Made by a program: the position numbers and the translations under genes. A stretch of 64,000 bases of DNA from Linyphia triangularis (taxonomy: Eukaryota > Arthropoda > Arachnida > Araneae > Linyphiidae). The notes beneath the pieces were generated by a model that saw only the letters and a list, made by a program, of their open reading frames with translations, was not told the DNA's origin and searched no databases. Below are positions 4,701 to 62,500 of this stretch, in pieces; the stretch's first letter is position 1, and each line of letters opens with the position of its first letter. The stretch covers positions 24,562,688 to 24,626,687 of the forward strand of contig OZ021732.1 in assembly GCA_963978545.1 (NCBI GenBank). Direction: 5' to 3'.

Positions 4701-7700
4701 GACAATTATTACAAACTTAAGTAAAAAATATAGGAAAGGATTGAATTTACATAAAATGTATCAATATCTGATAACATACTGATTTGACAAGTTTGTAATT
4801 CTTACATAAATTTCTATAATGATTTACTTAAAAAATACAAAAAATCGTAAAAAAAAAAGTTTTATTAATAAAGCTATGGGGTCCGCCCACTGCTCGTCAA
4901 AACTCAACAGGTCTAATGCAAATTTACAATACAAATGCCAGATAATATCAACAACAAAAATTGAATTAAAAAAAAAAATTCTAATATAAATAACATTCCC
5001 ACTCAAATCACAGAATGAAAATCAATGACTTTTAAGGACCTAATTAATGTTTTTAAGGACCTTTGAAAATTTGTTTTCAGGTATCAAATCATGTCTATTT
5101 ATAAATTTTTAATAAAGTATGTTTTGCCAAACAAGTTATAAGTTGGTGGATGCGTAATACAAATATGTCGGAAAATTCTGATACGGTGCAGATAAGTGGC
5201 GGTCACGCGGGGATAGCAAGTTCGAGTTGTATTTTTATAAATTTTGCAGTTGGTCACACATCTGCAAAAATTAAGGACTTTTATGAACCTCTAAGCATTT
5301 TCAACGACTTTTAAGCACCTCAAAGCATTTTCAAGCACTTTCAAGGCCTTGAAAACAAGTTCAAAAATATTAAGCACTTTTAATGACTTTCAATGACCGT
5401 GGGAACCCTGATAAAGGAAATGGGTATTATGCATGGTGTTGCATTGTCTTTAAAAAATGATTTGATGGAAACTAATATTTTTAACACTTTAGCTGCCCGA
5501 TCTGAAATTAGAATGCAAAAACTACCCATGTTTAAAATTTCAGAATTATCAGAACACAAGTTTGCTGCTATAGCATGGCAAACTTGTACAATTCACTATC
5601 ATAGGATTTGCAAATGTCTATATATTAAAAAAAGTAAGGAATCAAATTTTGTCACGTGTATCAGACGAAACAGTCGTTTTGCCGCCAAACTTAAAAAGGC
5701 AGAAACGACAGTAAGTATCTATTCTCTGCACAATTTCCAGCGAAAAAGCCGAAATTGACTATTTTCTAGCGTGCTTACGGAACTTCACATAATTATACAA
5801 AAAATAACATCTATTCGTCTCAGTAATATCTTTTAAAGAAAAAAAAATTGAGTACCTAGGATAAAACACAACAAAGAAAAAAATTATTGAAATTTCCAAA
5901 ACGAAATAAAAAAAACAAGTTCTAGTCAGATTTTGATGTAAAAAATTAGGCAAACGTCCAGCCCTAACTAAGCTATAGATCTTTAAGAGGATTGAATCAT
6001 AGGAGGCGAAGCGGATGGGAGAGGAACTTAAATTTTAAAAATAAACTAAGTAAGCATACATTCTTAAGCGAGTCACAACCGAGAGTTGTAATCAGAGGTT
6101 GGCCATTTTTTTATATCACTATGTTGGTGGCTGAAAATTTCCATCATGTTTATGATTTTTTAATTGCAAGAAAGTGTTTGTGTTTTTGAGGTTGGTGGTT
6201 TTCTTACTTTTCAAAAGTGTTTTTTTTTTGGGAGATCTCAATTTCTGGTTCAAGGAGAACTGTGAAATTTTAAACACAAGTAGTTTCTGCATTCATTTAG
6301 TTTCAAAAGAATTTTTTTTTAATTGTTAATTAGTTTTTTTTTAATTAAATTTTAAAATTGGCTGTAATGGTAATCCAATGGGAATTTTTTTTAAATCACT
6401 AAAACTCATTTTTCGTGCTCCTTTCCCCGTTCAGAAACCCATTTCCTCCTTTTAAAACGGGTGAAGGGGAGAGGGTGGAGGAATTATGACGTAATTTAAC
6501 AAGGTCGCATGCATAAGCTCCAAGTGTGATATCGTGAGATTATAATGCTCAATAATGCTTTTAATTGACTTTCTGGCCAAAAACTGTCTTTTGGTATTTA
6601 CTTGGTTGAATTTTTAATTAGTTTTTTCATTGACACATTTTAGAAGTATGCAAAATCATTTTTCTTGATGTCCTTGAGTTCTTTTGTATTTTTTAATTGG
6701 CAACAATCAGTTATTTTAAAATCGGCCAATTAACACTACAATGTGCAAGGTCATCATTGTTTTAATTTTTGGGAAGAATATTCCAGAATTTTTTAAAGTT
6801 CTAATAACAAAAATATATTCACTGGGCTGAGTGCCATTTCGGTAACCGCTTGCTGGAGACGACAATTTAGTTAGTTTATGTAAGCTTTTGTGTTCTGACA
6901 AGGGGACCTTACAGTCTCAGAAATTCAGATCGGGATGAAACTCGGCAGATTGGTAGTATACCTTAAGGGTATCCACACAGTGAAGCAATAAAGAGCACCA
7001 GCCAGAAGATTCTGAGAAAACAGGCTCTAAAGTGTTACGCGCAGCTTATATACTAGTAGAGATTTTTGCTCTGCAACTGCAAATAAAGTATTATCTTTAA
7101 TTGAAATTTCTATTAGTTGTAACAGTAACTTTATAAATTGAAGAGAAAAAAAAACCTCACTAAGTATCGAGCAGGGGGGTTAGTGAGCAGGGGGCGGAGC
7201 CCCTAATTATAAAAGTTAATTAAAAAAAACTAATTATGTTTAAAATTTCAGACCTATAGGTGAAGAAATGGTACCATGATGCAAAAGTACAGATTTGAAT
7301 CCCTTTTTTTTATAACACACCATAGAGATAAATTTCTTAAATCAACCTATCTTCTTTAGTTTAGTGAAACATAAGAAAATAAATATGATCTAATTAAAAT
7401 ATTTTACTAATGTCAGACAATACTATTACACAACAATTTTAAACTGACAATATTAAAAAAGTATAATTAAAAACAAATTTTATTTGAAAAGTCGATCTAT
7501 TGAAAAGTTTGATTACTTTTATTTAACTTATTGAAAAATTTTATAGACAATGTGGTTTACAATAAATATTTTTTAATTTTTTTGTTTGGCTATAACTAAG
7601 TATGCATATGCAGTTATAAGATACCTTAAATATATTTTGTATTGCTTTTAATAACCAAATACGTTCATTACATTCATTTCTAACTAAAATATTTTAATCG

Positions 7701-18860: not shown

Positions 18861-21480
18861 AATCCTATAAACCTAAAAAAGAAAATTTTGCTTAAGATCC
18901 TTAAGAATGCAGTATTTATAAATCTCACGGAACAAAATTAAAAAGTGTGTTAGGAAACCTGTTTGAAACAACAACAATGTTGCAAAATTTCCAACTAATT
19001 TTGAAATTAATTACTTCATTTCACATCCGATTAGATAACGCATGTCTGTCTGTATTTCAGGTCATGACAAATTATATTTCAGTTAGAATTAAACCATCTT
19101 TTAGCCAAATCTTCAAATAGACAACTTTTTGACACCAAATTGACACTCAGCTAGTAAATTTAGCTTATATATTTTGATATTTAATTTCGTCCAGAATATC
19201 ACCAACTTCTATAAACTAACTCTCCCCCCCCCCCCCCCTATCTTATCCATATCTATTACACACCAATTTTTTCTCCTTTGACGTGGAAATTCAGAGTTTC
19301 TCTATGCGGCTAATTTTTGAAAAAGAGAACCCGTATGAAAATAAATACCTAGATTTTAAGAAACGAAGGCAATGCAACTTTGTGAATATTACACAACTAT
19401 ATATACAACGAATACTTTGTGAATATTATACAACGAATATAAAGGCAACTTTGTGAATATTACATAAAAGTCCAGCAGTAAGAAAATGATCCACTCAGAT
19501 TTGTAATGCACCGTATTAAAGATACATAACGTTTTAAGTTCGAAATGAGCCTTGACCTTATATTTAAAAGTCTATTTATCTGCAAGATCTCAGCTTTCAG
19601 AACCAAAATAAAATTATTTTAGAATCAGTTGCTAAAGCTTCAAGATATAGATAACTTTGCTACTAATGCCCCGCACATATTTCATCCTTCACTTTGAACT
19701 TTGAAGCTTGCAATTACAGGGTATTAATGTAGAATTTAGGAAAATTCCGCCTTCGTTTGCGAGCTAATTGAAACGGATGGAGGCACACAAGCGCTGACAG
19801 CTTCAATAAGCATCAGATAAGATTACGCGACTGTAAATGTTTATTTTCCATGATCCCGAAATGAACCAATCATATGAATTTTAGAAAACTTGAGCACCCG
19901 AGAGTGCAACTGCGTCCGGTCTTTTTCATTAATGACCTTTTACAATAAGCAGCTCATTGGCCAAGGTCCACTTCAGAGAAATCTTCGTCAATGAGTATGC
20001 TCTGATTTGTTATCAAAATTCAAAATACATGATGCCGGTTGGAAGACTCACTCCTTCGACAGCACTTCACGTGAGTAAAAGTTTTGTTTGCATATGATTT
20101 GTAGCCATATCAAACATGTGACAGTTGGGTGCCACCTTCCCCCCCCCCCTCCCCCTCGTCCCAATTCCTCCTGAAAAGTGATAGTGATTATAGAGGAGGC
20201 AAGGAGGATGGGCAGTCCTCCTACTCTTAGAAATGTTGGGTGACTAACTATAAAATCGTTTTAATTTTGTGGTTTGTCCCTTCACTTTTGAGATTGCCTC
20301 TTCACTAATGGCACCTAATACTGACAGCAGTTTTATGTTCATTGCATTTTTTTAATAACTAATTGTGTTAAGTACTTGCAAATCGTATGAATCTGATACA
20401 ATGGCGTTCTCTTAACAAAGAGAAATCTACATAATATGGAACAGGTGTAGAATAGAATGTTTGGCGATCAAACAAAAATTCAAAATCGAAAATACTTCAA
20501 CTAAAGCCATATAAAAACTAAAATTAAAATATAAATACTATTAAAATTAGTTTGAAGTATAAATAATTCAATTAAAATAATTATAAAACACAGTTAAAAT
20601 ATAAATAATAGTAAAATTAAAGTACAACTTAAAATGAAATACGCTGTCAGAAGCTGCATTTATCCGAAAAAGACAGCCAAATAATATCATGCAAAAAAAA
20701 AAAAAAAAAAATCATGTACCCCATATTATTTAGTAAAACTTTTTTTCCATTTAATGTGTTTTTTTTTTTTTTTTCTATAAAAATTATTACCTTCAAGATA
20801 TGTTGTTTTATTTTTCTGCTCAATTGTTTTATCAAATACTACACAGTTGTCGGATTTTAAGTTGGTGCAGAAATACATCAAACAGAAAAACAATAATTTG
20901 TGTCCTATAGAATCTTGTTATTTTTTAATATATTTTATTTTATTCGCATATTTATTGTGTTGAAATTAAATTAAGATAGCAATAATTTTTGGATTGTTAT
21001 TTATGTTTGTGTCTCAATGCTGTCTCGGTGTTAATGTAAATGTTTTATGAAAAGTGCCTTAAATAATGCTTTCAAAAATAATGGTAATTGCATACATACA
21101 GGGTCTTTTAGAATGGGCAACGTTGAAATGGCATGTTGGCTGGACAAGCATGTAATTTCAAACACATGGGTTTTATAAAATTACTTACAATATTTGAACG
21201 TGACTACAAATTGTTGTAATATCTGAATATAACGGTATGAGTTTATAGTTTCCCTCATGGAAAAGGGCCATATGGTTCCTATACCGCAGTAGCAAAAATT
21301 CGCTGACCATTATCGGCTCGACACTGAACAATCCAGTTGCTACGGATCTTGGCCAATCTCGCTCAGTATACTGGGTAAAATATACTAGGAGTTTCGAAAT
21401 GTTGATGCAGAGTTTTAAAATTAAAATAGAGTGTCATAAGTAAGGACAGATGGGTAAAAAATATGTTTTGGGATGGGTTT
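18861..21480. other. A+T-rich intergenic stretch
   Basis: No gene. Holds a short tandem array (19372-19468), C-runs near 19225 and 20141, and low-complexity TAAAATTAAAATATAAAT around 20510-20630. Confidence 0.6.
19372..19468. repeat. Degenerate tandem repeat, ACTTTGTGAATATTA
   Basis: Three units containing ACTTTGTGAATATTA followed by CACAAC, TACAAC or CATAAA lie in tandem with spacings of about 30-45 bp. Confidence 0.7.
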
Positions 21481-23379: not shown

Positions 23380-23893
23380 CAGGATTCTCACTCAAGTCAC
23401 AGAAGGAAAATCAATGATTTTTAAGGACCTAAATATTGTTATTAAGGACCTAAATATTTTTTTAAGGACCTTTGAAAATTTGCTGTCAGGCATTATGTCT
23501 ATATATAAATTTTTAATAAAGTATATTCTACCAAAAAAGTTATTGGGCGCAGTATAGTCCACGTGTTGCCCTTGCGCCTTTAAACTCCAACCAACCAACC
23601 AACCAACCAACCAACCAACCAACCAACCAACCAACCAACCAACCAACCAAAAAAGTTACAAATTGGTGCATGCGTAATACGAATATGTCAGAGAATTCAG
23701 ATACGGTGCGGATAAGTGACGGTCACACGGGGACAGCAAGTCTGAGTAGTATTTTTATAAATTTTGCAATTGGGCACAAAACAATCGCATAAATTAAGGA
23801 CTTTTAAGGACTTCTAAGCATTTTCAAGTACTTTCAAGGCCTTGAAAACAAATTCAAAAATATTAAGCACTTTTAATGACAGTGGGAACCCTG
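23380..23893. mobile_element. hAT-like element A, copy 2 (interrupted by a later insertion)
   Basis: Left end CAGGATTCTCACTC and right end CAGTGGGAACCCTG form the inverted CAGGGTTCCCAC terminus. Interior aligns with 4991-5410 throughout, including GCATGCGTAATACGAATATG versus GGATGCGTAATACAAATATG. The only large difference is the CCAA-tailed insertion at 23543-23646, so the first copy serves as an empty-site reference. Confidence 0.85.
23543..23646 (+). mobile_element. Tiny CCAA-tailed retroposon-like element, copy 1
   Basis: About 43 bp of unique sequence (GGGCGCAGTATAGTCC, ACGTGTTGCC, CTTGCGCCTTTAAACT) run into (CCAA)n of about 60 bp. CCAAAAAAGTTA stands directly before (23531-23542) and directly after (23647-23658), a 12-bp target duplication. 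The uninterrupted sister repeat (near 5120-5140) has CCAAACAAGTTA only once, which proves insertion. GGCGCA and TGCGCC can pair as the base of a stem. No coding capacity. Confidence 0.9.
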
Positions 23894-23964
23894 TAAATTA
23901 TTGCTAGAGTAGCTTTCCTTCTAATTCAAAAAACTCTAAACATTTTTATAACATTTATATTAAC

Positions 23965-24470
23965 TTCGATTTTGTGTGTATGTGTTGATTGGAGACAAAT
24001 CTGAGGACGCCTAATTATCCCCCTTGCCGTCATCCAATCTGGCTGAAACTTGGCAGATAGGTTTGATGTCGATGACAATGCATTACAACAATTTTTAGGG
24101 CTGTTACTGTCACTAAGAAGTCGTTTTTATGGAATACTAATAAACCAACTTGCCATCATCCAATCGCATAAAAATATCATTGAACCGACCATTGTTGAAC
24201 CTCTTTCCTGCTGCCAAATTTTTTTTAATAAATAAATAATAAAATTACTTGAATCAGAATAAGTAAATGATATTTGAATGTGAGAGCATAAATTCACGTT
24301 AATTTTTAATAAATAAATTTCAAAACGTAGTTTGCCGCACTTTTTGATATCAGCGTTGTGTTAATGAATATAAAAATTGACAATGTATACAATTTTTTTT
24401 TAATAAAAACTCAGTTTTATGAGTTATATTATTATTGAATGACATTCATTTTCTAACTGAATAGTGATCA
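23965..24470. repeat. Dispersed repeat B, copy 1
   Basis: AACTTGGCAGATAGGTT, GATGTCGATGACA, GGAATACTAATAAACCAACT, ATAAATAAATAATAAAATT and CGTAGTTTGC appear in the same order in reverse complement at 40800-41375. About 500 bp, non-coding, no terminal repeats found. Confidence 0.8.
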
Positions 24471-24649
24471 AATTAAGTACAGCATCTTGAAAATACAACG
24501 TCCATAATTTACATTTTTAATGATTTATGATTCCTCCAAATAACGGGAATTAAAGAAGAGAAAGAACCCGTACAATTGTACCAGAAAGAACTGGTACAAT
24601 TGATTAAGAAGAAGCAGAACATTGTTTGATCTTCATAAAGTTACTTAGG

Positions 24650-24692
24650 TTGGATTGGATTTCTGGCGCAAGGGCTTCACGTGTGCCATACT
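24650..24692 (-). mobile_element. Tiny CCAA-tailed retroposon-like element, copy 2 (5'-truncated)
   Basis: In minus orientation the 43 bp read from AGTATGGCACACGTG through GCGCCAGAAATCC to a short CCAATCCAA tail. It lacks the first ~8 bp (GGCGC) of the full copies. TAAAGTTACTTAGG flanks both sides (24636-24649 and 24693-24706), a perfect 14-bp duplication. 5' truncation with an intact tail is the signature of target-primed reverse transcription. Confidence 0.85.
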
Positions 24693-24706
24693 TAAAGTTA
24701 CTTAGG

Positions 24707-26030
24707 CCAAATCGAATACACATAACAACATCCTCTTTATAAAGATATTCTAGAATAACAACATAAATGTCCAATCAGCAGGGTTGTTGGATTATGTATA
24801 TGTTATTGAAAATTGATTTCATTAAAAATTTTAAATATCTGAATGCGCCCATGGTACGTTTGACGCTACCTACAAAAAGTAGTTCGTACGGTGTCTTTTA
24901 GTATCGCATTTTACTATCGAACAAAACTTGTGGAATTTATACTATGGTAAAAAATTCCTTCTTAAAATGATATAAAATATATTAGTATAAAGTATTTCTT
25001 AAATGATTAAAGTATATATCTTTGTCCAACTGAAGGCGAGCGTACTGATTGTCTCTACTACAAGTATGGCAACACATAAATATTTAGCTCATTTGTGATT
25101 AACTTTGAATACAAAATACCGTTCATTAGCTAACTCCTAGGTAAAATAGAACAACGAAGGATAAACAAAAATATATCTCAATAAGTTTAAACTATTCTTA
25201 GACTTAACTTAGCATTGGTATTTGGTAATTGTGCAAAATGCCATTGACAATCCATGGTGTCATATGTTTTTGGTTTTGATCGCCTTGGTCTCGCATTCCA
25301 AAGGTACAAGACACGGATTCCATGTTGGTATGTAAGTTCTGTTCCCATTATAAATCCATGTTGGATCACATTCTCCTGCTAAGGTGTGCCAGGTGTTATA
25401 GATGAATCCTCACAACCAGCTGACGTTTTCATATTAACTATCTAACAACAAGGTCCTATTTGACTCTTGAGAAGGAAAATGTCTTCTGTTCCACATAGAT
25501 TGAAAATAAGATGTCGCAACGACCGATAAAGTTGTCCATCATCGTACTTCTATAAAACTCCGATTATTGCGTAGGAAAGTAGTCCCACTAAGAAAGATAA
25601 CTTCCCTGTTAAAAGAAGCCAATACGTTTTAAGTAAACGTTTTTTAAACATAGAAGCCATCTCTGAGGTATCAGATCGGGTATCTTTGACCATCTATCTT
25701 AATGGTAACACAGAGTAGTTAATTCACTTCTCAGTCGTATTTTAGTTTCTCACTGAATGCTTATCGAATGTGACGCAACCAGACAATTTTCCAAGGTGTG
25801 TGTGTGGAGAAAATGCCTTGGATGCAGTTTCTTTGTGTATTTAAAGGTTTTGATATAATTATTGCCTTGTGAAATTGGTCATATGTAGTGCAGATGTATA
25901 ATTCAAATGTAACAATAACAAATGTAAAAGAATAACAAAAGTTCATCTCTCGCGAAAGAAAAGAGGAATAAGGCTTCGGTTTTGAACGTAATAGAGAAAA
26001 GAAGTTCTGTTTTAAACACTCGAAAAAAGT
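24707..26030. other. Intergenic stretch without recognised feature
   Basis: Slightly less A+T-rich than its neighbours with several short frames on the minus strand (25187-25369, 25761-25946). None has domain-like sequence or good splice borders. Nothing supported. Confidence 0.4.
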
Positions 26031-26038
26031 CTAAGAAG

Positions 26039-26096
26039 GGCGACGCTGTATGGCCCTAGTGTTGCCCTTACGCCAGTAAAGTCAAACAAACCAATC
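26039..26096 (+). mobile_element. Tiny CCAA-tailed retroposon-like element, copy 3
   Basis: GGCGACGCTGTATGGCCC, TAGTGTTGCCCTTACGCC, then AGTAAAGTCAAACAAACCAA. CTAAGAAG flanks both ends (26031-26038 and 26097-26104). Relative to copy 1, the head has small changes and the tail is degenerate, suggesting an older insertion. Confidence 0.8.
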
Positions 26097-26104
26097 CTAA
26101 GAAG

Positions 26105-27233
26105 CTACAATGTATTATTTAGGTGCTATCAGGTGACAGGTAATACCCGACCAGGGAGATAATCCTTATCATGCGCGTTATTAAATTTGATTTCGAGGAG
26201 GTTCCTTTCTTTTTAAACCCTAACCTACCTTCATATCAAAATGACGATGTTCTGAGAATGGAACTTTCACTGATTGCTGCTCGAAAATGATTCTAAAATA
26301 ATTTTTCTTCGACTCGGTTTGATTTCGAAATAGTATAAAAAAGCAACTCTAGAATCTAGACTACCCTGAGGATGGAATATAAAGCTTACCTTACAATAGA
26401 GAGGGTGTACAAATAGCTGAAATATCACTCATTCATCACTGACAGATGTTACCATTTCCTTAGTACACTAATCCACTTCAATACCTACAGTAGTTACTTT
26501 ATAAGGCAAACAAAAATCTCATCCTAGTTGGTTCAACAATTCTCAAGTTTGAAAGCCTTATGCAGATAGGCCTTATATTTCTTATATCATAACATGGCAA
26601 TCAAAAAATACAAAAAGTGTGTAAAACTGAGATGAAGGGTTACTCTACGAAATTTTGACAATATTGCCATCAGAAGCACTAAGTGTAAAAAGCGAGGAGT
26701 CCTCATCCTCAGAGACTGATTTATAATAGGGCTTTCGTTGCACTTGCCCAGGGTCCCGATTTTATGGGCCCCTAAAAATGTTTATAAAGATAAAGAGGAA
26801 TTTATTAATTAATGAATTTTCTTATCCTTTATTTTTTTAATTACTTAGAAAAAAAACACCCATATTTTACTGTTTTATCCAATCGAATCAATTTCATGTT
26901 TCCTGCATGTGTTCATGATAAAAGTAATTTTTTGCATTATCACTGCCACAAACTTGTAATCTGTTTGTAGCGTAAACTATTTTCACTTGGATTTGTCGTT
27001 TATGCATACTTTTTCCTATTCTATATTTTTTGATATTGTAATTATTATTTGTTATAAAATATCCAAGACATACCCATTGGTCTACTAAAACGTAAGAAAG
27101 AGCATGAGAAACGCGTGAGGGTCATTCAACTGAACTATAAGGTTAGATATAATTAAGAGTAATAATACTAATATAGTGATTGAGATAAAAAATAATAATA
27201 ATAATAAATTATTTTTTACATTATAAAAAGTAC
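26105..27233. other. Intergenic stretch
   Basis: No gene seen. GGTCCCGATTTTATGGGCCCC near 26752 looks like part of a degenerate repeat. An AAT microsatellite lies at about 27191-27208. Confidence 0.4.
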
Positions 27234-28492
27234 TGTCCACGAAAGTGACATGAAGTATAAAAGGCAGCAGAGAATTATTTAATGCAGATAAATTTTAAAT
27301 AAAAAGTTATAAAATATAAGTATCATTATTACTTTTAAAAGTGGTTAAATATTACACAACTTAAAATGTGACAAAGTATAATAATTTATTGTATATATTT
27401 GCTTTTCGTAAGATTTTCGGAAGTAATATTTTGACTATGTTTATTTCTGAAAAATAACTTAAATAGAAGAGAACATAGCATTGTGGTGTGTGTCACCTGC
27501 TGAAGAATTTTTTTTTTTTTTTTTTCAGTTCTAATACTACAAAGAATTAATTTCAAGTTTCAATTCCTCAATAGATAGATGCAAAAAAGATATTTTGAAG
27601 GAGAAAGTTGTCTTATTTCATCTTTTAATTGACTTCAATCAAAATTAGTAATAAAAAGTTGGTTGAACAACAGTTACTTTTAAAAAAATCAAGTTTTTGA
27701 ATAGAATGATATTTATTTAAAAACTCAAATTTGCTGTAAACCGACTTCAAAGCATTTAAAATCAAATATACAAAGCAAAAATAAAACAAAGGGTACATAT
27801 AATTTATGTTGTTTAGTGTTTAAAGATGCTTTTGCTATATATAAGGCTGTTTATTGTTCAGAAGTATGAAATTTCAACAAAAGTATTGTACCATTCGCTT
27901 TCAACCATGGACAATTAGTTCTATGGATGTGATGGACATCCACGGAGGTGACAAAACGATAGTTTTTTGCAAGTGGTAAATTCTTAAGATTTTGTTTCAT
28001 GATTTTTGAAAATAAATCTATTTCATCATGTATTACAGATTTAAACAATTATTTAATAAATTTAATTGATACTGTCAATTCTATTGAGTTCCACGGATGC
28101 GACATCTCATCTCAACCTTTTATATATCAAGTCCAATAACTTTATAAAATCATTCATAAATAACTTAGTCTGTAGTTTGTTTTTTGCATCTAAACAAAAA
28201 ATCGGCTTAGCATCTGATTTCTTTATCAAAACAGTCAATAGCAAGGAATTAATGACACTTTTTTAAATGTCCACGAGTGTGACATATTGATCTGGTTTCA
28301 GACATTAAACTTGAAATAAAACTAACATAAAACTTATACTTGACGTACAAGTATTAGAAAAGTGTTTTAAAGAATTTTCTTACCTTTCAACCTAAAAATG
28401 CAGTCTAAAACATTTTAAGAGCGTTTAATTTATAAAATATTACCCTAGAAAAAGTCATAATATTAAGAAGTGACGTTCCACGGATGTGACAT
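27234..28492. repeat. Cluster of five TGTCCACGnnnGTGACAT motifs
   Basis: Near-identical 17-18-mers occur at 27234-27251, 27936-27953, 28088-28105, 28269-28286 and 28474-28492: a T/A-x-TCCACG half, three variable bases (AAA, GAG, GAT, AGT, GAT), then GTGACA or GCGACA. The halves TGTC(C)AC and GTGACA are reverse complements apart from one extra C, so each motif is an imperfect dyad. The last four are 130-210 bp apart. Intervening sequence is A+T-rich and not itself repeated. Meaning unknown. Confidence 0.75.
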
Positions 28493-29334
28493 TTCTCTAT
28501 TTGGGAGAAAAATTTGAGTAATATTTACAATATTTTATTGCAATTTAAAATTGGTCGTCGTATATAGGTCGTTGAGCGCACAAACTTATAAATGATAATT
28601 TTGACTTAAAATTGTAACACTTAACATGTTCAATTATATCTGAAATTAAAAGAGTAGAGTAATTCTTAAAATATAATCTTTCCGCAGTATTTAACACTTG
28701 CATAGATTATGTTATTTTACGTTGTGCGCTTATACATAAATTTAGCCACTTTATTTCATGGTATATCGGAAGGCCTTTGAATGTTATAAATACGTAAAAT
28801 ACGAATTAGTAAGTTAAAATGGATCACCAATCTTTGCTCTTTGACCAAATGTTTTATTGTTTTTGGTCACAATATCTGTTATTTTTAATAACATTTTCTG
28901 TAAAAACACAGTGAAAAGTTTTTAAAAACTGACTTAAAAAGTAAAATAATAATAATAAAAAGATGCTAATTATTTTCCTTTCAAAACTTGTTAATGGTCT
29001 CTTTATTACGGTTGTTATATGCCTGGTGTATAAATTGCAGGAGTCACATTCGCCCAAAAAATTCCTACTCCCTAAAATTCCTAAAATTGTACTTAAATTT
29101 TTCAATAATTTCTAAAAAAAAAAAAGTGAAAAACCCGGAAATTCTCTTATTTTCAATCAAATCCCGCCACCCCCCCCCCCCCTCCCGATGTTCCTCCAGA
29201 TTATGAAAGTGGATTTAATTAAATTCGCATGTTTGGTCAAAATAGTATAATTTCTTAATTATATAACTGTTATTGTTCTAAAAAATTTTTAAGCAAAACA
29301 AGCTTTGAAAAGAATATATCTGTGTTAGAGGCCT
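28493..29334. other. A+T-rich intergenic stretch
   Basis: No gene. Contains a C-run (about 29172-29183) in CCACCCCCCCCC context. Short frames at 28854-29206 overlap on both strands and look like chance. Confidence 0.45.
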
Positions 29335-29520
29335 ATGTCAGCTTCAAAAGAAACATCCCTAAATGTTTTTCAATTATCCCTAAAATTTAAGAATCAACCC
29401 TAAAATTAAAAAAAAAAAAATATCTCTAAAATTTAAAAAATTATCCCTTAAATTCTTACCTAATTTTTTTTGAAAACTCATTGCGTCCTCTGAAATTGAT
29501 ATTTTCTAACAATACATCGG
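29335..29520. repeat. Dispersed repeat F, copy 2 (inverted)
   Basis: Reverse complement matches 13845-14060 (GCAATGAGTTTTC, AAAATTAGGTAAGAATTT, several AGGGATA blocks). Here AATTATCCCTAAAATTT-type units are themselves repeated three to four times. Confidence 0.6.
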
Positions 29521-31246
29521 CAGATCTTGTGTTAAGCAATAGGTCTTATGGGGCAGGGTTATAAGCCCTTAAGTTACCTATTTTTCGTACAATTTGCCAT
29601 TGACACTGAAAAGCCAACGAAACTGTGCGGAAATTGGAATTAGAATGGAAGCTCTAGAAATTGCCTTATTTTTCGGAAGCGCAACAACTTATTTATAATT
29701 GACTCACTGCGTGCTTTCTCAAAAGACAACAAGTGTCCCTTTCATTCCTCTATATCTGCCCTTTCTTAGATTCTTGATGGAAAGAGTTGTTTGACTTCGG
29801 AAACCTTTTCAAAATTGTCGCCATTTGAATGAGCCTTATCTATTCGACCTTGAAATGCCGACCATCGCACATTGTAACATGGACAAATCACGTGAATTAG
29901 TTTATTTATTATTCGTAACAAACTTGGTTTGTAGAATGCCGACACAATTGCAAATAACAATTAAAGTCATAAATACGATAATTTTAAGAGAAATATGTCA
30001 ATAATGAGGAGACATACATACTAAACTGTTTTCAAAGAAAAGTAATTTTACTTGATCCTCAAAAAATATTACATTTTCGTTAGAAAATTGCTAAAATATT
30101 TTGTTGAATATGTTATAACCATTAAAATAAATTAAAAATTGTTTTTAATGAAATATTTATATTTCTACATCACTACCAGAATTAAGTTAGAATGAAAAAA
30201 ATTAATTACGAACTGAATGCCAACAATACTTAAAAACTATATTGTCGATTGTCTGGACGAAAAACTGAAAAACTCAAACACCGCAAAAACTTTAAAATTT
30301 CTAAAACATAAATCTTTAAAAAGTACACTTAAACAATTTATTTATATTACTTGTATATTTTTGCTGTGTTTGTGGAATTGCAATGAATGCTAAACATGGT
30401 CTTTTTCACTTAAAAACAACCCTACTTTTTGCTTTTACTTTAAAAAAAATTACTCTATAACTATTTAAAAATTTCAAAAACATAAAATCACTCCTGTATT
30501 GTAAATATGGGTAATACAAAAAGTTTGTTCGCCTTATAACCAACATTTTCGTTTATAATTTAATCTAGACGTAACCTATGAACACATTATCAACTGTCCT
30601 TGTTTTTAATTTGCTGATCAAAGTTTAATGAACATTATTATTAAACTCTTAGGATATAAAAATAAAACTATCATATCTTTAAAAACAAGCAAAATAGCTT
30701 AAAATAATGAAGTGATAAAGAATAAAAAAAAAAAAAACCCAGCTAAATTCGTGAAAATTTGCTGGGAAAAAAGTAGGCAAGAGATGTAATTTTTCTGTCC
30801 GGATCATTATAGAGAAAAATAAAGCATACAAACAAAAACCTACAAACGTTAAAATTATCGAGAAAGGTAAAATCAATAATCTTGGATGTTAATGTTCAAG
30901 AATAAAGAGGCTTCAAAACTTAACTACAGCAGTCTCTTTCAGTGGTGATTGTAAAGGTTTTTCCAAATATTTGTATAAAACTTCCGGTGAAAGTAAAAAT
31001 TATATTTTTTACAGACCGTATGGCCTTACTTTCGCATAAAATTTTTACTATGTTTTTACCTTTATAAATGTAACTTTAAAAATTATCACATGCCTCTTAA
31101 TAAGTAATGTATGTAATCAGATAAATCTAGTATAAAAATGTAGTATTAATAATTTTTTCGAAAAATATTTTAATTTGAACCAATCAATTTACCCACGCTC
31201 ATATACTACAGTTTAGAATTTTCAAATTCTCCAACTATTCTATTTG
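29521..31246. other. A+T-rich intergenic stretch
   Basis: No gene, terminal-repeat element or array recognised. Confidence 0.4.
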
Positions 31247-31254
31247 CATACAGT

Positions 31255-32239
31255 CAGTTCTAAGTGTGGGTAGAAGCGGGGTGACGCGCCCCTCCACTTT
31301 TTAAGAAAATACCCATGCTTCTCCCCACTTCTAAAACCACTGAAATCCATCCCTCCAATTTTAAAAACATTCAATCCGTCTAAAAACTAGTAAAGAAAAT
31401 AACTTTAACCTTGTTGTTATTTCTGATTTCCCTTTTTGATTGATTTTCTGGTTATTTTTTTAATTGAATTTTTCTTGGAACTTGGTGACGAATTTTGGCT
31501 CCTGTTGTCTGAGATTATTGAGGAGTGTCAACTCAAGCCAAATGAATTTCTTCTAAAAATATGTCATTTCAATACCAAATAGAGCGATCAATACTAGAGC
31601 GATAAAGTCACTTTCTCGCACTCCTCGCGATAAAGTGTTATTTTCGCCACGATTTCTGATTAAAAAAGGTTTAATTTTTGACTTGTTATAAGAAATTTAT
31701 TTAAAATTTTCAAATACAAAAAAAAAAAAATATGGTATATATGTATCATACTGTTGTAAAAATGTATTATACTACTTAGGTATACAGGTTTTTTTTTTAT
31801 TTATAAATACCGTTACATTTGGTTAACTTTTAACTTTGGAGGAACTTTCGTTTAATTAAAATTTCTAATGTTGTTTCATATAAAGACAAGGAATTAAAAA
31901 AAAAAAAAAAAAAAAAAAATTGGAATTCTCTATTTATTTAATTTGATAAAATTATGATAATTTAGAGGCACTATTTAAATCTAAATAAACAGTTATGTAT
32001 ATATTTTTGATTATTTACTCTTATTTCCAAGTAAAAAAACTACAGTCGCTGAATATTCATTAAAATAACAATAAATTTTGGACCCTTGTTCATTGTTTGT
32101 GTTGGGAAGTATAAATTATTTCCTTAGTAGTTAAATTTTTTTATAGGATACGAAATTATAAAATTTATCGTTGGTGAAGGGGTACACTTGTCACCAACTT
32201 TTGGGCATCCCCCACTTTTTCCCCTCACTTCTACCACTG
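31255..32239. mobile_element. hAT-like element with 8-bp target duplication (985 bp)
   Basis: Left end CAGTTCTAAGTGTGGGTAGA, right end (reverse complement) CAGTGGTAGAAGTGAGGGG; the two agree if the left end carries a ~9-bp insertion after CAGT. CATACAGT flanks both sides (31247-31254 and 32240-32247), an exact 8-bp duplication. Inside are GC-richer ends (GGGGTGACGCGCCCC near 31279) and an A+T-rich core with an A-run at 31897. No transposase frame; non-autonomous. Confidence 0.8.
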
Positions 32240-32247
32240 CATACAGT

Positions 32248-35044
32248 TATAATTTATACCGTTGCTTTTATGTTCAAAATAACCCACTCAAAATTCCTTT
32301 CAATGTTATAATGAGGTAATGTTTTTAACTCTCAAATCGCATTGAAAAAGAGGAGTATGACAGAGAAGCCAACAAATGAGTTCACGGTAGGTCAACGTTT
32401 TAATTTACTTTACTTTTTACGATCAATATGCGTGCAGTTTGTTACCAAGTTGCAGACATAGACATTGGCAATTGGCCAAAGAGTTTTCACTCGCTTTGAA
32501 TTACTTGGAAGTATACAAGGGGACACAGTTTCAAAATTGCATAAAACCTGGAACAAATCCCTTTTATTTAATACCAAATAAAATCCCCTGTCTGTCTGTC
32601 TCAAGAGAAAAAGCTTTTAACGGTATTCTGCAGATATAAAAAATATTATTTGTTTTAGAATTCTGTAAGACAACGCTGAGGTTTTTTTTAATATGAATTC
32701 TTCTTCTTCTTTTTTCAGTTAAGCACTTTTCGTGCTGAAAAAAGCAATTTTCCATGTCACTTTACACACTTTACCAACTGTGCAATAAAATGAACAATTT
32801 TATCTTGAAAAATGTTAAATATTACCTTGTTTTATGTTTTGTTACACGTTTAAGTCCGGTTTATTGAAAATATTTGAAAACAATATTGCTTTTAACTCTT
32901 CTTTGACAATTGAAATTTCGCCATCCTAATATTATGATGCAATATTAATAAAATCTTATAAAACGTATTGGAGCTCTTTACAATGTTTAATGTTTTTGTC
33001 TGCACAAATGCATAATTGAGAGCTTTTATGACTGAATGTATCCGTGTTCTCATTTTTTCGCACTTTATTGCAGCAACTGCTAATAGCAATAAAGAGAAAA
33101 TTGAAAAATAGCACATTAAAGCCATGTGAATACCTATAGCGTTAAAATATATTTGAAGGATTAATAATTTAAAGCTAAATATAAACTCTTTTGAGTTTTC
33201 AACTGTAACTTAAAAAAAAAATTCTCTTTATTTACAACAACCTTTTAATCTAAAATATTTTAGCAATTTAGCAACTAAAAGCTTACACTAATGTTAGAAT
33301 ATTTTTAAACCTTCAGAGATTATTAACATGGTAGAAAAACATGGCAAAATCAACCTTAATTAATTAACTAAATTTACTCATGTCATCTTCTCTTAACAAT
33401 GGCAGTTTTTTTATTTTAGCCTCATGTTTCATAGAAAATAATAACGAATAATTAAATCTAGCTAATTTAAAAACAGGATTTCTTCTATACATATAAGATA
33501 GAAGAGAGACAGTAAAATTAAATTCATAGTTAGTGAATTTAAAAGTAAATTAAAGGACACACAATTTTCATTTCATCAACATTCATAGAACAAACTAATT
33601 CAATTTAGTTTAAGTCGATCTTGTTATAAGGACCTTTAAACTTTAAATCATGCAAATTTGTCGTGAAATGTGAAAAATAAAGGAATCTTTTAGTTTTAAT
33701 AGCAAACGAATTTAAACAATGAAGAAATTAATATTCAATTTGAAACTACAACCCCATGAGATCGTAACTGGACTTTCATTTCGGGAGAGAGGTTTTGAAA
33801 AAATATTTCCACGCATATACTCAAAACTGGAAAAGTTGTGAAACACCAGCCAGTCAATGGCCATTGTTTTTATTAACAATTTCGAAATTCATGTATGTCC
33901 AAGTATTTTCATGTATGTAATTTAATGTATAATACATAACGGAAAATATGGAGGGGGATCCTATTACCCTCCCCCCCCCCTGTATACGGCCCTGAACTCC
34001 ACAGCTAAAATATATTCTAGTTTCTTTATGAAAAATATAATGATGCATAAAAATCTTTTACGCTGTTCTAGCATGGCTTGCCAAATCAACCTGAATTTTA
34101 TTAGTTTTCTTCAGGTTAATGAAAAACGTCACTTTGTGTTTAATTAATAATTATTAAATTAATACCAATTATTAAGTTTAATTAATAAACATTGTATTCA
34201 AAAGAGTTGAAAATAACTGAAAATAATTCACAATTTCTTCACTGGTTAAAAAAAAAGCCTGCCCCTAATTTTATTTTATTTACTATGAAAAAAAGTTTTA
34301 AGCTCAATCATATTTCTTTTATTTATAATATTTATTACACATCTTTTTTTTAAGTTGTACTATTTTCTTCATCTCTTGCATAGTTTTAAAATTAGTAGAG
34401 AATGCCTTTGACTCTATTTTCTCATAAAGAACAGATATTCTATAGAAAATTAATAGCTTAAAATATTTCTCTTATCTCGCCAAAAGACGATAAAGATGTT
34501 AACCTAGTAACCTTTATCTGTGGAATGCGGCACGGCGCGCATTGAGATCCCAGTACAAATGATTTCTTTCTCCAATGTAATCAATAGATCTAAAATGCGA
34601 ACTTTATTAAAAGAATGTCGAATAACTAATTAGAAAACATTAATCTGTAGTATTTTAACAGTTTTTGACGGAAATTTCAGCCTTTATTTTTTAATGGGAT
34701 ATTGAATGATTTTTTGAAATTCTGTTTTTTTTTACAAATTTCAATTTGAACAGGCAGCTCTAGCAGATGTTATACCTTTTAGAGTTCTTCGAACTAAAAC
34801 TTGAAGATTTTCATTTGACCGTACCACTTCAATAAAAAATAAATATGCCTGACATTTTTTGTACCGTAATTGAGGGTATCATATCAAAGATAATTCAAGG
34901 TGACCATAAAATCAATAGAAAATCATACTGATTATACATCAATAATTCATTATTATTATTATTATTATTATTATTGACTAATGGGATTATTTGTAAAATT
35001 TATATTGGGTACAATAATTTAATCAAAATAATGTTATCAATCCA
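32248..35044. other. Intergenic stretch, repeats only
   Basis: No gene. A block near 33950-34010 (CCTCCCCCCCCCC then TGTATACGGCCCTGAACTCC) resembles the end of a common dispersed element. ATT microsatellite at about 34949-34976. Confidence 0.45.
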
Positions 35045-35640
35045 CGATTAAACTAGGAGTGTGGAACATCGCATAATTTTAAATTGTATTTAATACCCAT
35101 TGCAGTTAGCCTTGGACTGGTGTAATTTACAGTTTTCATTTTTTATATTTTTATTAATTTAATATATATAACCCCGTTAGGTGATAATTATTTCATTGGC
35201 CAAAAATAATAATAATACAAAAAAAAAAAAAAAACTGTCGTCAAAATGGTGATATGATTTTCGATAAATATTACGTTATTATTTCTTGTAAGGGAAACAG
35301 AGGATGAACAGTTGTTGATGAGCGATGCTCAAAGAAAGGAAACTGTTACAGATATTCGTTTTTCACTTTTTAAACTTTTATCGCATTTTCATGGGAATTT
35401 CGGAGGAAGATATGTTTAGAACACCTTAAAAGGTAATACCACATCGATTTTGATCAAAATCGTTAGAGCCCGTTTTTTATCAATTGCGGAAAAGCATAAA
35501 TTTTAACCCACAAGCAAAAGTTAAACATCGTAGGACAATTAATTCGGGAGTTATGCTGACCATGGACAAATACAAAGAAATTTTTTTATAGACCACTTTA
35601 TTGAGCTCAGCTCGTTCCAAAACGTGTCGAAACGCAAAAA
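35045..35640. repeat. Dispersed repeat D, copy 2 (inverted)
   Basis: Reverse complement of 49230-49865: GTGTGGAACATCGCATAA at one end, then GATAAATATTACGTTATT, GGGAAACAGAGGA, GATGAGCGATGCTCAA, TTTGATCAAAATCGTT, GGGAGTTATGCTGACCA. Order is conserved along about 600 bp. Family not recognised. Confidence 0.75.
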
Positions 35641-36178
35641 GAAAAAAAATTTGCTCATATGAATTGCAAATTAGCAAGTTTTCCCAAAAATAAATCTTTT
35701 GACCTAAAACTAAAAAAAAAAAACTTTTTAGACTAATCATCAATGAGAATTATTACGAATACAGGGTTATTATAAAAGTTACAAATCCAAAATAAGCTTC
35801 GATATCATACAATTATACGATAACATTGCATTTGACAATTGGACGTTGGGAATAAAATACAACAGGACGGCGTATTGCAAAAACCTAACAAACGCCGAAA
35901 TTTTTGAAAACAGAACTATGTACATCATTGGTTTCGCATTGACATTCTGTATCGAAATGGAAAGTTGTATAGCACTCTATTTAAAATTGACTACACTAAC
36001 AGTAAAATAAGTAAGTTACAGAATATTATTCTCGATTACAAGATATATGTGTTTCGAATTTTCTGAAGAAGCGGTAATCTATCGTTTGCCTGGTTTTTGC
36101 TTATCGCCGTCCAATTACAAAAACAACTCTCCATATTCTTTTAAATGTGCTATTGAAAAACTTACTTTTACTTGGCTG

Positions 36179-36230
36179 GTTGGTAGGAGTTTAACGCCGC
36201 AAAGGCAACACATGGGCCATACTGCGCCAA
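36179..36230 (-). mobile_element. Tiny CCAA-tailed retroposon-like element, copy 4
   Basis: In minus orientation: TTGGCGCAGTATGGCCCATG, TGTTGCCTTTGCGGCGTTAA, ACTCCTACCAAC. The 52-bp body is flanked by TTTTACTTGGCTG (36166-36178) and TTTAACTTGGCTG (36231-36243), a 13-bp duplication with one mismatch. Head and length match copy 1, but the tail is much shorter. Confidence 0.88.
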
Positions 36231-36412
36231 TTTAACTTGGCTGACTTTCGCATGTTTAGAATTCCTCTCCATATTGAAATCCTGAATTTTAGCTAAATAC
36301 AATTGCTCTACACAGCATCGGTTGCAATGATCTTAGTTTGTCCGTGGTTCTTCCTTTCATTGCCGTGAAAGCCTTTTAACAAGATTATCATAAGCTTGTG
36401 AAGGGACTAGGG

Positions 36413-45018: not shown

Positions 45019-45588
45019 TAAGAAAAACTAGGTTAGTTTACCTTCAATTTGATTTGTCTAAATTAAACTGCTATAATATACCATTGAAACCGGGACATTC
45101 TAAAACCGACACTCTGAATCGGGGATTCAAATTGCATATGATATTCGAATGTGCATCTGGCTTATAGAATTGGTTTATTAAAAATATATTATGAGTTGAT
45201 TGTTAGATTGTACTTGAGTTTAGGATATCTGAACTACGTTCAAAATATAGGCGCTCCATTAAGATCCTGTTGATATGATGTTCGTTGACATGTCTGATGG
45301 CTGTAGACTTTTGCTCACTGAGAACTTAGTAGTTGTAATTCATACACAATTAAAATATTGGAGTTCGATTTAACACTGTTCTTTTTAACTTTTCTATCTG
45401 GAACTATAAGCTTGGAAAGTATTGCATTCAACGATAAGACATGCAATAAAATAACGGAGTTAATATCCCAGAGTATGTTTGGATTTTTATGGAGCCAGGG
45501 CAAAGTTGTGGTGTTACCATAAAAAAAAATTCTTCCTAGAATATACGTTATGGTTTGCATAACATAATGATAGCATCGTATGCCATAT

Positions 45589-59500: not shown

Positions 59501-62500
59501 CACTTGAAGTGCTTTAGTCACTTATATGATAGCGTTTATTCGTTTTGCTAAAGGTAGATATATTATTTCACAACTTCAGCTTTATTCGTTTATTCTCTGA
59601 GGCATGGGTGGAGGTAGAATTATTTTCTGTGGGGTGGAGAGGGCACTTAAGGATGTGCAAGGTGGTTAATTTTTAGAATTAACCTTGATTTTTCAATTGA
59701 CTATTTTAATTTATAGTTATGTATTAAATTTGTTATATTTAAAAACCTACATCATACTTATATTACCAGTGAATTGCACCACTTTTCCACTTTACTTTTA
59801 ATTTTAATAATTTAGGCAGTTGCAAGTACATCCTCTTGCACTTTTCTGGCTGCACCCGTAGCTGATGTGTTATTAAACTTCTTGAGTCACATTCTAACAA
59901 AAGATGTTTGATAGCGATATAGTAAGCCCTAGGCATTTAAATATTAAAAAAAAGTTATAGCTCGTAATTTCTAGGAATCTTGGAATTCCCCATTTTCTGT
60001 TGGTTCTTAGCAAAATTATTCGCTTCAATTACAACAATATTAGAGTAGGAACATTTTTCTAAGGAGAAATAACATGTGAATGCCATATTTGTAGTGTCAT
60101 TTGTCAATTTGACAGTTACACCTCTCCTGGTCTATTTGTATATATATATAATTTAAGAATGTATAATAAAAGTCCATTTTAAACTTAAATGACAAAAATA
60201 CGGCTTTGAGATAAAAATTAATTGGCAAACTTCTGTATTTTTCCAAACTTATTGTTTTTCTATTAACAATCAGCGATCGATACATTCCGATGTCCAATTG
60301 TATTAATTGTATTTTAAATATTCACGTTTAAAAATCTAATAGGGATCAGTCATTTATTGGACATCCTGCACGTTCTGTAAGTAACGAACTCAGCTCGTGT
60401 CCGCCTCCTACGTTTGAGAACGTTTTTTTGGATTGAAAGAGAACCCGACTGGACGGAGCCCAACGTAGAAACTACATCGATCGGCACTAGCTAGAGGACC
60501 TCCCAGAGAAGGGAAACCATGAAAATATAAAGATTTATCGTTTGGTGCTTTACTTTGCGAATTGAAGAAAACTATTAGTATCCGATTAAGAAACTCGATA
60601 ATAACCTAAATTTAAGTAATGTAGATTCGGTGCATTTGTATTTCACATCACTCAAATGCAATAGACTATTTCTACAGCACTGAAACTTGATACCGACAGA
60701 AAATTGGTCGCGCTGCAGCTGAAAGATATCGATTTGATATGTTGTCACGAGGTTTCAAGAATAGGCCAGAGTGTACTGTTTCTAATGAAGTATGTTATTT
60801 CATGGAAAAATACATTGTATATTACTATTCATTAGCGATTATCTAGCACAAACAAAAATAAATGTAAGAAAGAGAGATTAAATCATATTTGATATGAAAG
60901 TGTCTTAATAGTCAAACATTTAATAAACACACAGGAAAGTCTTTAGTACACACAGATTCACTGACATTCAGACTCCTGGTTCGGAGGCAGGAATATCGGA
61001 GATAGCGTATGAGAGAGTTAAGGATCTACTCACTGCATTGTATGACTTTTGCAACATGTTATTGAACAAAAAATAAAAAAGGGAGAAAAAATCAGTGATT
61101 ATGACAGTTTGTCTCGCTTCCAATGTTGGGAGATCTGTTGGAAATTTTCCCAGTTTCTTTCCATTCGAGACTCACATGCAAGATAGTTTATTCTTAGAAA
61201 ACTTTTCTATAGAATCCAAGTCTTATGAAATGTTAATTAATGCTTACGAATTGGTACTTTATTCAAAAGAATGATTAAATTCCTATTTGTGCGTTTTATT
61301 TTCCTGCAAATTTTTTTTTTTTTACCCTTTTTTTTCAAATGCCAGGAGGGTTTGTAACTGTAAAAGTAAGAAGTTAAATAACGAATGAAAATTATATTTA
61401 GAAAACTCTTTGAATAAAATGAGTAGTAGCGTAAGAGCTCTTAAGATATTTCTACCTTTTACTGGCTATTTTTCAAAGAGGGTATTTTAATAAGTTCAAG
61501 GGAGTCAAAACACCTACATTATGTTGTTGACGCACAGGTAATAACGTGGGTGTAGAGGAAAACGTATTTATGAAGTTTATTTTTAATTTAAACATGATAT
61601 TTTGATGACATTCAACTAGAGGGGAAATATACTACAAATAAACACATTAAACTGTGTCATTTAATATTACTAAATCCACACTTCTTCACAGGCTATTAGT
61701 TTCATCCATCCGGTCACAACTTTTATCTGAATTTGCGTGTTATTATATCAACAATATTTAAAATTTGACACAGAGAACAAGTGTAACATTTGTAGTTATG
61801 CCGTTCGATTGCACAAGTACTATGTCATTAATCTGAAGTGTAGTAGATGTACGTTATCTTTAGGATTTGTTGCATGATTTGTGCGTATTAATCAGATTAT
61901 TAAACGCCAATACTCCTATTAAATGTCATTTTTACGTAATATTTTGCATTGAAAAAACAGTTTTACAGATATTCGGAGCGGGGGAGAAATAATACTTTTG
62001 CCCTCGTTGTTGGGGGAGCACGGGGGCGACCGCCCCTTTTGCCCATGTGTAGTTGACGCCTATGCGTTAATTCCAGGCCGTTAAAATTTATTTAATTTTT
62101 AGTCACTTCTTTCTATCGATTCATTATAACATTATTTACACTGGTAATACATTCAATTAGCACTGGTATTCCTATTTATGCTTTTTATTTACAAAAGCTC
62201 CTTATTTCGAAACAAATATAAGTGGATTTATTGCCTATTTTAATTAGGACTGCATGCCATTCAGCCGCAAGCTCTCTGCCTGAAGCAACCAAACTGTCAA
62301 CAAGCTTGTATAGAACCAATGTCATTTTCGTGATACTCACAATTCAATTTGTTAAACTATAAAATTAATTATACTTTGCTTTCATTCTACTAACAGGCAC
62401 CGGCTTCGGCCTAATGTACCTGCCAGCCATCGTGTGTGTGACGTGCTATTTCGAGCGTCGCCGCGCCTTCGCCACAGGAATCGCAGTCTGTGGATCCGGA

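Follow-up and report, generated by a model that had tools for sequence, protein, structure and literature searches.

Several long interspersed nuclear elements (LINEs) of the stringent type, among them UnaL2, ZfL2-1, ZfL2-2 and SART1, end in a 3' stem-loop that is recognised by the product of their second open reading frame, ORF2 (PMC4176376, PMC5135761). Binding of the stem-loop by ORF2 is reported for zebrafish L2-clade elements (PMC4176376), and UnaL2 has its 3' end in common with a short interspersed nuclear element (SINE), UnaSINE1 (PMC5135761). Tailless retropseudogenes of therian mammals have lost part of their 3' end, carry no oligo(A) tail and have been ascribed to L1 acting with internal priming (PMC5322556). 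The present analysis covers 64,000 nucleotides of the spider Linyphia triangularis (contig OZ021732.1, positions 24,562,688 to 24,626,687; "the window"), where four short insertions share a head, a core and a CCAA-type tail. Judged by its sequence, this module belongs to an autonomous LINE, whose 3' end it forms, and across the genome it has been inserted alone, in pieces of some 45-65 bases, by target-primed reverse transcription (TPRT), with a preferred 5' end at the base of a predicted hairpin.

All four copies lie where the first-pass annotation had placed them, with the head, core and tail described there and with target duplications (Table 1). A covariance model built from 31 sequences (24 fetched modules, three SINE hairpins and the four window copies themselves) ranks them far above all other matches in the window (E = 1e-17, 3e-17, 4e-16 and 4e-8). 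With up to three mismatches, the head 14-mer matches the window three times, where shuffled sequence leads one to expect 0.45. Duplications of 14, 8 and 13 bp (one mismatch in the last) hold as first reported, and that of copy 1 is 13 bp rather than 12 bp. The duplication of copy 4 was read by eye, as a scripted search chose a chance 11-bp match there instead. The tail is anchored beside one duplication in every case, and the reported head truncation of one copy is borne out by copy 2. The repeat entered by copy 1 has a paralogue in the window without the insert, which marks copy 1 as an insertion event and not a chance likeness.

What larger element does the module belong to? Fetched copies with their flanks fall into three kinds: many lie in unique surroundings with a duplication right beside the head, some have longer upstream sequence in common and different downstream sequence, and two composite repeats contain the module internally. 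The upstream sequence common to L050 and L054, and to L001, L006 and L055, encodes the end of a reverse transcriptase (RT)-RNase H protein. Two stretches, L169 and L170, were extended to 6.5 kb, and each is a LINE with a target duplication (14 bp and 19 bp) that ends in the module. Their ORF2 frames are open for 1231 and 1232 codons, respectively, with endonuclease (EN), RT and RNase H domains in that order. L170 has a 445-codon open reading frame upstream of ORF2, with cysteine-histidine knuckles recognised by eye; the matching region of L169 is split over two frames, so the frame there is not called intact. The two elements are 72% identical over an aligned 4.9 kb and 90% identical over their last 67 nt, and the 3' untranslated region between these blocks gave no blastn match at 1e-10. 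On these sequences, the module forms the 3' terminus of a LINE that is autonomous, with an ORF1 and an EN-RT-RNase H ORF2. The separate and unrecognised mini-element first proposed thus gives way to the alternative named beside it, a LINE 3' end truncated each time near one position, which describes the copies better. Many short copies share the variants of longer copies, and a SINE ends in a similar hairpin.

Among the 120 ORF2 relatives listed, those with animal names are nearly all from spiders (Stegodyphus at 53% identity, Araneus, Trichonephila and Argiope), with one limpet, Patella; this points to a probable spider or other arachnid host, with the reservation that LINEs may pass between species. 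The LINE protein has no relative in viral_contigs, and two scans of that collection for the core gave no match. In genome_contigs, L171 (JALTVI010000075.1) carries a LINE ORF2 45% identical in its best segment, aligned over nearly the whole length, and has no usable 3' end. This contig is filed under a Sulfurovum metagenome-assembled genome and is probably animal DNA in a metagenome bin.

The preferred 5' end was measured on 168 fetched copies, reduced to 162 by removing six with identical near flanks and to 118 events by collapsing composite-repeat copies with shared flanks; the last 10 of 100 listed places were read and kept out of the counts. A duplication of the downstream flank was sought over 264 nt upstream, and in the null the upstream and downstream parts of different copies were paired at random. 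Strong duplications (score ≥ 11) occur in 50 of the 118 events, compared with 6.0 in the mispaired null, and 38 of the 50 start within -5 to +3 of the stem base. The null gives 0.0 in this 9-nt window and a uniform distribution over the search span 1.7. Given the null of 6.0, the other 12 strong matches are partly chance. In a subset chosen by the core, and hence blind to the head, 8 of 12 strong-duplication starts from 44 events fall in the same window. Taking short events as those with a score ≥ 9 and a start between -6 and +4, and excluding 37 copies hand-labelled as extended (some by eye; several groups among them with no RT open reading frame seen) and 38 composite-repeat copies, we obtained 55 independent events, 39 with a perfect duplication. 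Starts are at -2 (14), -1 (13), -3 (9) and 0 (8), with few elsewhere. In 61 copies before collapse, the bases preceding GGCGC are T (15), TT (10), none (9) or various (27). The CCAA tail precedes the right duplication. From the target duplications, the empty paralogue of copy 1 and the anchored tail with its nick preference, the solo inserts arose by TPRT, as the first-pass annotation had proposed.

The module is abundant. In the genome searched (G000; 1.349 Gb in 369 contigs; counts of large families are lower bounds), exact matches number at least 755 + 834 = 1,589 for the head 14-mer and at least 1,441 + 1,532 = 2,973 for the core 16-mer. A 33-nt core with up to three mismatches has at least 1,663 + 1,854 = 3,517 matches, and reversed-pattern controls gave 0 for each of the three, in agreement with the earlier view of a genome-wide class far below usual SINE size. 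That view had been tied to most copies not running upstream into a LINE. As far as counted, most copies do not: 452 modules have the flank of one LINE type (LINE-B) 10 nt upstream, against the 3,517 or more modules, a ratio that is a guide only because a single LINE type was counted and three mismatches were allowed, so that chance flanks are possible among the 452. A LINE-B segment about 170 nt upstream has 122 matches genome-wide. We noted an uneven distribution of LINE-B: contig C10, with 91.6 Mb or 6.8% of the assembly, holds 27 of 40 zero-mismatch LINE-B segments, and of LINE-B-extended copies it has 78 among the first 100 listed (the list is in contig order and ends on C10). Two loci on this contig, L182 and L183, are LINE-B 3' ends with differing downstream flanks.

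Whether the short copies had one source or many was approached through haplotypes, which combine the box that follows the hairpin on its 3' side with a single variable base of the loop. Short copies have boxes of the GTTAAA, ATAAAA, AATAAA, TAATAA and TTATAA types, and each of the five also occurs in longer-labelled copies (TAATAA and TTATAA by eye only). Within the GTTAAAC type there are linked variants, for example T together with CTCTTACC, C together with CTCCCACC and T together with CTCCACTC, in short and LINE-extended copies alike. An exact haplotype match among 60 longer copies was found for 23 of the 55 short events, and six of the eight haplotypes seen at least twice in short copies recur in the longer set. 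The shared haplotypes make it more likely that LINE RNAs gave rise to short copies many times than that one mini-element master did so. No change shared by the short units alone and no B box were seen, by eye only, and in the window no tRNA gene was predicted by ARAGORN (bacterial settings) and no Rfam family matched at its gathering score. The unit starts at the stem base, and no RNA-gene-derived head with an internal promoter was found (A and B boxes were sought by eye only). A U6 or tRNA-Ser origin of the head, suggested by a weak likeness, was considered and dropped.

A tRNA-headed SINE of about 175 bp offers a comparison (e.g. L186, about 54-240; L143, about 1-170; and L002). It has a tRNA-like head (box B by eye), target duplications, and a hairpin and CCAA tail resembling those of the LINE; at one inner stem position the LINE has a G-C pair where the SINE has A-U. 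The SINE hairpin has 59,976 genome matches with up to three mismatches, SINE matches in the fetched loci have a median identity of 96.6% to the consensus, and the window contains no copy at E ≤ 1e-3. Once 23 matches without a 3' end, nine at a locus edge and duplicates were set aside, 42 copies with 3' end and flank remained. All but one of these (41) extend upstream of the hairpin, and 34 of the 41 have their start in the first 10 nt of the head; the remaining copy begins at the hairpin itself. This argues against a hard stop of RT there. Among 32 full-length SINEs, 24 have a duplication score ≥ 10, and the duplication exactly abuts the 5' end in 20 of the 24. The short inserts have a SINE-like nick preference: T precedes the nick in 20/24 SINEs and 38/55 short inserts, and C is the first base after it in 13/24 and 25/55 and the second in 14/24 and 30/55, respectively. 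This context, T/CC.A with the nick at the stroke, could pair with the CCAA tail.

So, how did the solo inserts arise? We lean, with moderate confidence, towards TPRT of fragments from the 3' end of LINE RNA whose first base lies at the stem base and which were perhaps left by decay from the 5' side. The LINE's own enzyme would copy the 3'-terminal hairpin and CCAA tail from a template whose 5' end lies zero to about three bases before the stem, at (U)UGGCGCAG, and such short RNAs would arise again and again from the LINEs' own transcripts. Their likeliest source may be 5'-to-3' decay halting at the folded, perhaps protein-bound hairpin, which would leave the smallest RNA still carrying what the enzyme needs. 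The observed starts agree with an RNA shortened from its 5' side until only a few bases are left before the stem. Under abortive TPRT, synthesis would begin on LINE RNA of full length and end early, the enzyme letting go after it has copied and unfolded the hairpin to which it was bound, so that a long template yields a short cDNA. This predicts the same preferred 5' end and the same shared haplotypes, and could draw on the binding of the 3' stem-loop by ORF2 in zebrafish stringent LINEs. We nevertheless consider it less likely, because the SINE, with a similar hairpin and the same type of nick, was copied past the hairpin in all but one of the copies counted, mostly to within 10 nt of its 5' end and with duplications mostly abutting the exact 5' end.

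A true mini-SINE, with at most a few source genes whose transcripts consist of just the hairpin and which borrow the enzyme from the LINE, could account for two haplotypes that occur three times each in short copies and are unmatched in the longer set, and for the unmatched events overall; TGGCCCATGTG in the hairpin is, by eye, a candidate for a slight likeness to a pol III A box. In the short copies, however, the boxes of several element types and the linked LINE-B subtype variants are present, and by eye neither a mini-only change nor a B box was seen; this origin is improbable. Far less credible are two further possibilities. One is that the inserts are ordinary, randomly 5'-truncated LINEs of which the short ones were noticed first. 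Truncation points elsewhere are known, near -33 in L056, -97 in L123 and -173 in L168, but the concentration of 38 of 50 starts in 9 nt refutes this as the whole explanation, and the remaining 12 are only twice the null. Headless 5'-truncated copies of the tRNA-headed SINE would share a similar 3' hairpin and tail, and one headless copy, L008, was seen, without a clear duplication. The short copies carry the hairpin and box of the LINE, not the SINE version GGCGCATTATAGCC..GACGGCGCCAGATAATC, which refutes this origin for the sampled copies.

Several results weigh against decay-made templates copied from the stem base. The stem-loop is a prediction, and conservation of the sequence is firmer: four of six sequences fold into two stems of 7 bp and 3 bp, separated by a small internal loop and capped by a loop of 9 nt, while the two derived from window copies 1 and 4 adopt other folds (z = -0.2 and -0.1), and folding energies are unremarkable across the six (z = -0.1 to -2.8). 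The GGCGCA and TGCGCC ends are present as first claimed, and the stem they would form is a candidate: stem cells are paired in 90.5% of cases versus 89.9% in shuffles, and covariation is hard to judge because most rows were fetched by the exact 3' arm. No strong duplication was found for 68 of the 118 events. The covariance model, run on about 200 kb around 65 fetched loci, gave 105 matches, of which 51 are off-centre (41 with the SINE head and 10 without), and a strong duplication at the hairpin start accompanies one of the 10 headless ones (L043). As many as 32 of the 55 short events have a haplotype outside the 60 longer copies, which may reflect mutation, small sampling or another source and leaves room for some propagation of their own. 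The SINE is unlike the LINE upstream of the hairpin, which makes it an imperfect control for RT stopping. Finally, this reading draws on genomic sequence, from which we infer the short template RNA itself.

The feature list of the window is given in Table 1. The model matched 18 places in all; below the four copies, the best are 45476-45523 and 20803-20823 (minus strand, E 0.14), and 12 further matches have E from 0.65 to 4.6. A further copy proposed at 288-317 on the minus strand was dropped, as a foldback repeat lies right beside it and 293-314 reaches no better than E 2.9 with the model. Elsewhere in the window, an open frame at 62369-62833 resembles an exon of a monocarboxylate-transporter-like membrane protein, on a translation read by eye.

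Table 1. Solo module copies, their target duplications and related features in the window
Feature	Positions	Strand	Remarks
Copy 1, left target duplication	23530..23542	.	ACCAAAAAAGTTA, 13 bp; empty paralogue in window
Copy 1	23543..23645	+	TTG, hairpin unit from 23546, TTTAAACTC, long (CCAA)n tail (array 23587-23650)
Copy 1, right target duplication	23646..23658	.	
Unoccupied paralogue of the repeat entered by copy 1	about 4950..5400	+	
Copy 2, target duplication, tail side	24636..24649	.	14 bp, exact
Copy 2	24650..24692	-	5'-truncated within the stem; first five head bases gone
Copy 2, target duplication, head side	24693..24706	.	
Copy 3, target duplication	26031..26038	.	CTAAGAAG, 8 bp
Copy 3, complete unit	26039..26096	+	
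Copy 3, target duplication, tail side	26097..26104	.	
Copy 4, target duplication, tail side	36166..36178	.	By eye
Copy 4, complete unit	36179..36230	-	
Copy 4, target duplication, head side	36231..36243	.	13 bp, one mismatch; by eye
Old decayed copy, weak candidate	45476..45523	-	Covariance model E 0.029

The composite repeats comprise 38 copies by sequence label and form flank clusters of 24 (L010, L012, L015 and 21 more) and nine copies (L011, L017 and seven more). The first of them runs on into GGAATCGAACCCTGG, in which inspection by eye suggests a B box of tRNA type on the opposite strand. In another group (L072, L081, L104, L105, L113, L116 and L120) the upstream sequence ..TTTAAACTGATGTTCACCAATTTGTTT is common to the copies and precedes a decayed module, and several copies also have common downstream sequence. 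At the 5' end of the LINEs (L169:416-470 and L170:671-725) there is, by eye, a conserved and apparently folded motif, CCTC.GGGGG.., with arms CTCAC/GTGAG in one element and TTTAC/GTAAA in the other, followed by CGGGCTT..CAA.CCCGAGG. A known ribozyme or other described RNA was looked for in L169 (380-1100 and 6300-6501) and set aside, as no Rfam family came near its gathering score.

Stem-loop recognition, LINE/SINE pairs and 5' truncation are already known. For a solo LINE 3' hairpin with a preferred 5' end we found no description in the titles and abstracts of open papers among the matches listed, and sequence strings had no text match. If fragments of this kind are indeed retroposed, the solo inserts would be about the smallest retroposons possible, a hairpin of about 35 nt plus its tail would mark a lower limit for natural retroposition by such a LINE, and the genome would store many footprints of the smallest RNA that a LINE can retropose. 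We tentatively extend this to the possibility that decay of LINE RNA is recorded in the genome by these short inserts: the enzyme would routinely use an exonuclease-resistant 3' hairpin left by 5'-to-3' degradation, with each LINE lineage leaving its own set and no mini-element gene involved. With one kind of 3' end, the LINE, the SINE and the solo hairpin provide a natural experiment on whether 5' truncation stems from template decay or from RT stopping. Inserts this short are likely missed by repeat annotation.

How does this module compare with known systems? In 5'-truncated LINE copies, truncation points are usually spread out. The solo inserts resemble such copies in TPRT from the 3' end and in the loss of the 5' part; here, by contrast, truncation piles up at one structural boundary. 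With tailless retropseudogenes they have in common that pieces of RNA were retroposed with structurally defined end-points and target duplications, whereas here the 3' end is intact and it is the 5' end that is preferred. There is also the pairing of UnaL2 with UnaSINE1: here too a SINE of about 175 bp has a similar hairpin and CCAA tail, and, as in UnaL2, a short tandem-repeat tail common to the LINE and its partner SINE follows the hairpin. The solo inserts, however, lack any head. With the stringent LINEs the module shares a predicted terminal 3' hairpin, and recognition of the hairpin by ORF2 would be expected by analogy. This LINE differs from UnaL2, ZfL2-1, ZfL2-2 and SART1 in carrying RNase H, and its hairpin and tail have also been inserted alone, at a preferred 5' end.

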